From Pseudomonadota bacterium (GTDB lineage Bacteria > Pseudomonadota > Gammaproteobacteria > QQUJ01): a stretch of 64,000 nt of DNA. Positions 21,783 through 63,550 of the stretch are shown piece after piece; position 1 is the stretch's first letter, and the number at the start of each line of letters is the position of its first letter. The notes under the pieces are model-generated. The model was not told where the DNA came from. It did no database searches and saw only the letters and a program-made list of their open reading frames with translations. The position numbers were made by a program, and so were the translations under genes. The DNA lies in contig QQUJ01000010.1 of assembly GCA_008501635.1 (NCBI GenBank), forward strand, positions 620,001 through 684,000, written 5' to 3'.

Positions 21783-25127
<3,345 letters not shown>

Positions 25128-25136
25128 ACTCAATCT

Positions 25137-25224
25137 CGCGCAAAGGCGCCAAGGACGCAAAGGGAATACTTTGAGACTGCAAAACAACTGTTTCTTGGCG
25201 GTCTTTGCGCCTTCGCCTCTTGGC
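25137..25224. repeat. CGCAAAGG-type imperfect inverted repeat, copy 1
   Basis: Left arm at 25137-25163 (CGCGCAAAGGCGCCAAGG then ACGCAAAGG) and right arm at about 25194-25224, whose reverse complement reads GCCAAGAGGCGAAGGCGC. The two arms are related but imperfect. It starts 10 bases after the leuS stop and runs into the lptE reading frame. A second copy of the same family is at 56143-56234. Confidence 0.8.
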
Positions 25225-25728
25225 TCACGATTCAAGCTCTATTGCACCGTACCACTGGTCATCGTTCTGGCACTGAGCGGTGGCTGCGGTTTCAAGTTGC
25301 GCGGATCAGTCGAATTGCCCGCGGCATTGCAAACCACCTATATCGCCGGGGAGCAGGTTCCCGGGGATCTGCTGGTTGAGCTGCGCCAGGCCCTGAAGGC
25401 GGCCGGGGTTCGGTTGGTGGGCGCCCCGCAGGCCGGCGCCTCGATCCTCAAGATCCTCGGCGTGCACGATGATCGGCGCGTCCTGTCGGTCAACAGCGTA
25501 ACTGGCAAAGTGCAGGAGTATGAGCTCAACTACACGATACGCTTCGCTTTGACTGACCACGACGGCAAAGAGCGGGTCGCCCCGCAATCAGTAAACCTGG
25601 TGCGCGATTTCCGCTTCAGCGAGACTCAGGTGCTCGGCAAGGGCGAGGAAGAAGCGTTGCTCAAGCGCGAGATGCGCCGTGAGGCGGTCATCCTGTTGTT
25701 GCGCCGACTCCAGGCTCAGGGCAGTTAA
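25171..25728 (+). CDS. lptE: LPS-assembly lipoprotein LptE
   Basis: Up to 185 residues. LptE plugs the LptD barrel that inserts LPS in the outer membrane. A signal peptide (LYCTVPLVIVLALSGGC) ends at a lipobox Cys (residue 39 from this start), followed by CGFKLRGSVELPAALQTTYI, typical of LptE. No ATG exists: possible starts are TTG 25171 and TTG 25195, both inside the inverted repeat. The repeat therefore supplies start and n-region. It lies between leuS and holA as in E. coli. Confidence 0.9.
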   Translation: MRLQNNCFLAVFAPSPLGSRFKLYCTVPLVIVLALSGGCGFKLRGSVELPAALQTTYIAGEQVPGDLLVELRQALKAAGVRLVGAPQAGASILKILGVHDDRRVLSVNSVTGKVQEYELNYTIRFALTDHDGKERVAPQSVNLVRDFRFSETQVLGKGEEEALLKREMRREAVILLLRRLQAQGS

Positions 25729-25738
25729 CCGGGTTGCC

Positions 25739-26797
25739 ATGCGTATCAAAGCCGACCAGCTCCCGCAACAGCTCCGCCAGTCCCTCGGCCCCATCTACCT
25801 GATCGCCGGCGACGAACCGTTGCTGGTTGGCGAGGCCGCCGACGGAGTGCGTGAGCGGGCGCGCGCGGCTGGCCATGTGACTCGCGAGGTGCTCGATGCC
25901 GGCGGGTCGTTCGATTGGGCGAGTCTACGACAGACCGCCGACAGCCTGTCGTTGTTTGCCGAACAGCGTCTGCTGGAACTGCGCCTGCCGGAACCGAAAC
26001 CGGGCGCGGCGGGCGCCAAGGTACTGGAGACCTACGCGGATAACCCGCCGCCGGACACCATCCTCCTGATTGTCACCGGGCGTATGGATAAGGCGACACA
26101 GAACAGCCGCTGGGTCAGCGCGCTGGATCGTGCCGGCGTGGTGGCGACCATCTGGCCCATTTCCCTGCAACAGCTCCCCGATTGGATTGAGCAGCGCATG
26201 CGCCGTCGCGGATTGACAGCAGATAGCGAGGCGATTGCCATGATTGCCGATCGCGTCGAAGGCAACCTGCTCGCGGCCGCGCAGGAGATCGAACGCCTGC
26301 ATCTTCTTCATGGCAGCGGTCGCATCGATACTCAGGCGGTTGCACAGGCGGTTGCCGATAGCGCGCGGTTCGATGTCTACAAACTGGCGGATGCCGCGCT
26401 GCAGGGAGATACGGCACGCTGTTGCCGGGTGTTGCACGGTTTACGCAGCGAAGGTATCGAACCCGTCCTCGTGCTGTGGGCGCTGACCCGTGAGGTGCGG
26501 GCCCTGGCGAGCATGGCGTATGATGTGAGCCAGGGCGGGACACCTGCCCACGCCATGGCGGCACAAAAGGTGTGGGAGAGCCGTAAACGGCTGGTGGGCG
26601 CCGCGCTGCGGCGTGGAGATGTGGGGCATTGGCAGCGGCTCCTGCTGCAGTGCGCGCATATCGATCGAGTGATCAAGGGCGTGGCTGCGGGACGACCCTG
26701 GGATGAGTTGGAGACCCTGGTGGTGGCCATGAGCGGTATCCCGGCCCAGGCAATGGTCGGACTGTTGGCGACTCCCTCATCAAGCAAAGGTAGTTGA
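25739..26797 (+). CDS. holA: DNA polymerase III subunit delta
   Basis: 352-residue delta subunit, which opens the beta clamp within the clamp loader. The start [12 protein letters not shown] and the [20 protein letters not shown] segment near residue 25 are typical of the family. Length is near E. coli HolA (343). The ATG at 25739 lies 10 bases after the lptE stop; the frame is open 20 codons further but would overlap lptE. The protein is a AAA+-fold relative lacking a functional Walker A, as expected for delta. Confidence 0.94.
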
Positions 26798-56142: not shown

Positions 56143-56234
56143 AACGCCAAGACGCTAAGGCGCAAAGGACGCGAAGGGGAGTGTTGGTGAATGCAGCTTT
56201 TTTGGCAATCTTTGCGTCTTAGCGACTTGGCGTT
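56143..56234. repeat. CGCAAAGG-type inverted repeat, copy 2
   Basis: Left arm 56143-56176 begins AACGCCAAGACGCTAAGG and continues CGCAAAGGACGCG. The right arm, about 56203-56234, read on the minus strand begins AACGCCAAGTCGCTAAGACG. The arms match well with a few mismatches. It lies between the acyl-CoA dehydrogenase and thioesterase genes and shares the CGCAAAGG/CGCCAAG words with the copy at 25137-25224. Confidence 0.85.
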
Positions 56235-63484: not shown

Positions 63485-63550
63485 GTAGGAGCGGCGGAAG
63501 CCGCGACTGGCGCAGCTTGAAAGAAGCATCGCGGCTTCCGCCGCTCCTAC
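63485..63550. repeat. REP-like hairpin between guaB and guaA
   Basis: Arms GTAGGAGCGGCGGAAGCCGC+GA (63485-63506) and its exact complement (63529-63550) are 22 bp each with a 22-base loop. The GTAGGAGCGGC start is like widespread REP/BIME elements known in Pseudomonas and relatives. It begins 2 bases after the guaB stop and ends 17 bases before the guaA start. It could attenuate or stabilise the guaBA message; it lacks a T-run. Confidence 0.9.

Follow-up and report, generated by a model that had tools for sequence, protein, structure and literature searches.

A dispersed hairpin repeat at the leuS-lptE junction of a gammaproteobacterial genome probably supplies the start of the LptE precursor

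The window considered in the current analysis is a stretch of 64,000 nucleotides, which encodes on its forward strand leucyl-tRNA synthetase (leuS), the LPS-assembly lipoprotein LptE and, downstream of lptE, the delta subunit of DNA polymerase III (holA, 25739-26797, PF06144). The leuS gene has been assigned by its Pfam matches to 22074-25127, the longest open frame, with the true start further in, and it ends with a TGA at 25125-25127. The lptE gene extends from a candidate start at 25171 to 25728 and its product matches PF04390 with an E-value of 1.2e-15 and a score of 58.7 bits against a cut-off of 23. Its lipobox, LSGGC, is encoded at 25273-25287, with the Cys codon at 25285. The genome carries a single copy of lptE, and lptD is also present and intact. 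An inverted repeat lies between leuS and lptE, and its position bears out the proposal of the initial annotation that it separates the two genes.

The reading frame of lptE is open from 25117, a TAG being situated at 25114. A walk along this frame has identified only two usual start codons (ATG, GTG or TTG) before the Cys codon, namely TTG at 25171 in the loop of the repeat and TTG at 25195 in its right arm; the earlier claim that these are the only starts ahead of the hydrophobic core, with neither ATG nor GTG available, therefore holds. The next usual start in frame, TTG at 25297, is already past the Cys codon, and ATG and GTG are absent from 25224 to 25278 whichever frame is read. The candidate start at 25171-25173 gives a precursor of 185 residues with 38 residues before the Cys, and the alternative at 25195-25197 gives one of 177 residues with 30 before the Cys. 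The corresponding Shine-Dalgarno duplexes are of -5.5 kcal/mol, which is not above chance, and -2.7 kcal/mol. The Shine-Dalgarno-like match AAGGGA upstream of TTG 25171 (25160-25165, spanning the left edge of the loop) is weak, 31% of random sites having one as strong. Both TTG codons are predicted to be unpaired with a probability of only about 0-3% when the whole repeat folds. Owing to this weak Shine-Dalgarno match and the predicted pairing, poor initiation is to be expected at these codons unless ribosomes translating leuS open the hairpin.

The probable full element spans 112 nt (25124-25235), as delimited by arm matches and by enrichment of an outer motif, and is comprised of an outer TTGAA motif, a left arm, a loop, a right arm and an outer TTCAA motif. 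The left arm (25134-25162, forward strand, TCTCGCGCAAAGGCGCCAAGGACGCAAAG) is made up of tandem CGCMAAGR units and has been recognised by the family profile and by its matches in the genome. It is followed by the loop (25163-25193), which is not common to other copies, and by the right arm (25194-25222, reverse strand), also recognised by the family profile, whose reverse complement is CAAGAGGCGAAGGCGCAAAGACCGCCAAG and which holds TTG 25195 within the TTCTTGGCG usual in the family. An ungapped pairing of 25140-25162 with 25194-25216, which are 31 nt apart, shows 78% complementarity. The predicted RNA fold of the repeat stretch has an energy of -35.4 kcal/mol as against -25.7 +/- 3.2 for shuffled sequences (z = -3.0), and none of 200 shuffles folds as well. 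Complementarity and fold confirm that the inverted repeat initially annotated at 25137-25224 is real, chance being ruled out for it as a repeat; its extent is larger, with arm edges at 25134 and 25222 and, including the outer motif, limits near 25124 and 25235. The outer motif is present at both ends (near 25124-25128 and 25231-25235); its left copy includes the TGA of leuS, the left arm starting 6 nt past this codon, and ATTCAA at 25230-25235 fits the outer motif of the family. No match has been obtained in Rfam for 24900-25500 at E <= 1, and no promoter or terminator has been found by consensus within the element.

The imperfect palindrome at the junction is a member of a dispersed hairpin family. 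A search of the genome with 25110-25250 gives 46 matches, mostly to the left arm, and the left arm alone has genome matches down to E = 3e-6, which are independent of the sequences used to train the arm model. The arm profile, TCTCGCGCAAAG-RCGCMAAG-RNCGCMAAG, represents tandem units of about 8 bases. The arms of the lptE copy, both of which are in the training set, score 30.1 bits (left) and 22.7 bits (right) against the family model, and the left arm, one of the 30 model-building sequences, is the second best match. The 30-nt arm model has 117 matches in the genome at E <= 1, and 106 clustered arm matches fall into 59 places, so that the repeat is dispersed with further genomic copies, as had been supposed. 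At 41 of these places, the lptE copy included, the arms form convergent +/- pairs. Loop lengths vary from 9 to 106 nt across the copies, and no loop-to-loop similarity has been detected among the 41 paired copies at E 0.01. The outer motif TTGA[AG] adjoins 28 of 80 arms and 3 of 80 control stretches (Fisher p = 4e-7). The family has a patchy representation in the class, occurring in 17 of 114 sampled gammaproteobacterial genomes, this one included; seven of the 17 carriers have at least 30 arm matches. A search of open-licence papers for the arm sequences has given no relevant paper, which at that coverage is weak evidence of novelty. The CGCMAAGR hairpin family is unnamed in the literature searched, and it settles directly behind stop codons. 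A second copy in the window (56148-56229) is situated between two codirectional genes, 18 nt past a stop codon and 23 nt before an ATG.

A simple gene caller based on codon usage, the calls of which are approximate, has allowed the placement of the copies to be judged at 58 of the 59 places. Codirectional gaps account for 22 + 22 of them, convergent gaps for 8, divergent gaps for 3 and locus ends for 3, and the median distance from stop codon to arm across the family is 26.5 nt. The family loci in six other genomes are mostly intergenic too, less tightly so. The other 5' ends adjoining copies have an ATG, GTG or TTG beyond the element and ahead of the coding body, doubtful ones having been judged by eye. 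Among the copies with a callable downstream gene, lptE is the only exception found, with no start past the element. Elements often contain a TTG in the frame of the adjoining gene, as seen for about 15 of 51 neighbouring 5' ends, since CTTGGCG is part of the right arm; with this composition a fallback start is easily available. Five further loci have been considered as a second case of a start supplied by the repeat. Four of them (L042, L052, L039 and L040) each have a start outside the repeat, and in L180 of genome G081 the frame appears, by eye, to be antisense to a gene on the opposite strand.

The same genome also encodes a separate family of GTAG REPs (GTAGGAGCGGCGGAAGCCGCGA copies), which flanks 10 of 56 CGCMAAGR elements. 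The flanking is two-sided in 4 cases, and the arrangement gives the impression that one repeat type is nested within the other. An inverted pair of GTAG-type REPs (GTAGGAGCGGCGGAAGCCGCGA) is found in the window at 63485-63550. Transposase genes of the Y1_Tnp (RAYT) type occur in this genome, one of them beside GTAG REPs on contig C17, where a Y1-type RAYT-like gene adjoins three GTAG REP copies (L175, G000:C17:285012-285233, and G000:C17:284735-284903). This transposase gene and its GTAG REPs likely constitute a REPtron.

The lptE genes of other bacteria have been compared at 53 distinct loci, all of them distant and none from the same order; the closest is about 50% identical, and neighbours from a contig scan are only about 42-50% identical. 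At 51 of the 53 loci there is an ATG or GTG that precedes the Cys by 13 codons or more without lying far inside leuS, and the nearest ATG or GTG has a median distance of 19 codons from the Cys. The two remaining loci, L071 and L092, have TTG only, which shows that a TTG start alone is nothing unusual. No relative in this distant set shares the N-terminal residues encoded here. From the leuS stop to the lipobox Cys the relatives have a median of 79 nt (IQR 63-114, range 37-410) as against 157 nt here; subtracting the 108 nt of repeat that follow the TGA leaves 49 nt, within the range of the relatives. The leuS-lptE junction is a recurrent site of repeats, since repeats are found in this gap in four other genomes, of the same arm type in L089 and of other kinds in L034, L092 and L099. 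L034, L089 and L099 keep an ATG beyond the gap repeat. What is special in the genome studied here is only the absence of a start past the repeat. In a 3.5 kb locus, L089 (genome G333) has two hairpins whose arms are of the type seen here, one of them in the gap. L092 (genome G205) has a CCCTCTCCC-type repeat in the gap and an lptE with only TTG at the usual distance from the lipobox, and the gaps of L034 and L099 hold other dispersed repeats (CCCGCGAAGGCGGGAATCC type; CACAGAG type).

The repeat family, its position at this junction and the absence of other canonical starts are all observed in the sequence, and the reading they favour, with a probability of roughly 0.68, is that a REP/MITE-like hairpin at the tight leuS-lptE junction has displaced the native start, LptE now beginning at a TTG inside the repeat. 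A hairpin of the scattered family would have come to lie at this junction, its left outer motif bringing or overlaying the leuS stop and its body displacing or removing the native ATG or GTG of lptE. Insertion into the 5' coding end, as first proposed, is one putative route; the element may just as well have come down in the leuS-lptE gap and carried the start away with it. The lptE frame happens to be open through the repeat, and the TTG of the right arm or of the loop (25195 or 25171) would then serve as the start, so that about 14-22 residues of n-region, encoded by the repeat, would precede a hydrophobic core and lipobox that have not changed. During lipoprotein processing the signal peptide, its n-region included, is cleaved off at the Cys. 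The replacement of the start would be tolerable because the n-region is cut off and the mature LptE remains unchanged. The translation of lptE may be reduced or coupled, depending on ribosomes arriving from leuS. A stronger proposal, in which the hairpin is a domesticated repeat controlling the translation of lptE as an essential gene, with leuS ribosomes melting it and the supply of LptE being tied to leuS translation, appears quite unlikely.

The rival explanation that survives best, an unlikely one, is an assembly error or strain variant at the junction, with a normal ATG or GTG just before the hydrophobic core and the repeat as an ordinary spacer. The genome is a draft in 30 contigs, and 51 of 53 relatives have ATG or GTG. 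Such an error would have to change a base, however, since the stretch 25224-25278 is free of ATG and GTG in any frame and a shift by one base exposes none; the ATTCAA at 25230-25235 fits the outer motif of the family and so is not obviously an error. It is somewhat less probable still that the hairpin is merely intergenic and that LptE takes no residues from it, its true start being a non-canonical codon downstream such as CTG 25255. The other family copies with a callable downstream gene, where the start is outside the repeat, and the hiding of both TTG codons by the hairpin agree with such a start, but CTG 25255, ATC 25261 and CTG 25267 all fall within the hydrophobic core, where a start would put no more than 10 residues ahead of the Cys and provide no positively charged n-region, and ATT 25230 is out of frame. 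There is little to commend the view that the change broke expression and that this strain makes little or no LptE, its gene persisting after recent silencing or suppression: the start is weak, the hairpin strong and the distance from the leuS stop 43 nt, as against an overlap or short gap in many relatives, yet the frame is intact over the whole mature protein, the Pfam match is well above the cut-off, and lptE is the sole copy in a genome with an intact lptD. A fusion or frameshift from leuS across the stop region can practically be dismissed. The open stretch of the lptE frame does begin ahead of the leuS TGA, at 25117, but ribosomes would have to switch frame in a span of about 10 nt where no slippery site is evident, and the product would be an exported lipoprotein carrying a tRNA synthetase.

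If LptE does begin inside the repeat, lptE would serve as a clean and checkable example of a dispersed repeat replacing a gene start at little cost, the cost being small because the n-region tolerates many sequences and is removed. The analysis also brings to light a hairpin family that settles right behind stop codons and is present in 17 of the 114 sampled genomes. The interpretation in the initial annotation stands as regards the dispersed repeat, the separation of leuS from lptE and the lack of ATG and GTG. Its description of such events as rarely documented is too strong, as protein segments derived from repeats read in frame and a signal peptide formed in part by a repeat have been reported (Delihas review, PMC2229807), as have stop codons provided by GTAG REPs (PMC3733652).

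The CGCMAAGR family resembles several known repeats. GTAG/CGTC-tagged REPs are short hairpins between codirectional or convergent genes that sometimes give a neighbour its stop codon (PMC3733652). The present family likewise occupies codirectional and convergent gaps near coding ends, but it has longer arms with tandem CGCMAAGR units and is without the GTAG tag. GTAG REPs are hairpins of 20-40 bp with GTAG at one end, and no GTAG is seen at the ends of 25124-25235. The Correia/NEMIS and ERIC MITEs are hairpin repeats of about 100-200 bp beside genes, some with readable frames (PMC2229807). The element at the lptE junction has terminal inverted repeats as MITEs do, whereas the conserved interior expected from a parent transposon is lacking, the loops varying between copies and the 41 compared sharing no similarity at E 0.01. 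Rickettsia palindromic elements are read in frame within conserved genes, the function of which is retained (PMC2229807). These are described as inserts in the protein, whereas in LptE removal of the signal peptide would take the residues away, and the start codon would come from the repeat. The Yersinia YPAL/RU-2 repeat at YPO1552 is small and palindromic and makes up a portion of the signal peptide in a protein predicted to be exported (PMC2229807), a role that the lptE repeat would share. There a hydrophobic repeat ORF of 56 residues builds part of a putative new protein (PMC2229807), whereas the lipoprotein LptE is conserved and would owe just its n-region to the repeat, the core and lipobox being native. 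Repeats supplying gene ends have already been seen in other bacteria, and lptE appears to add an instance.
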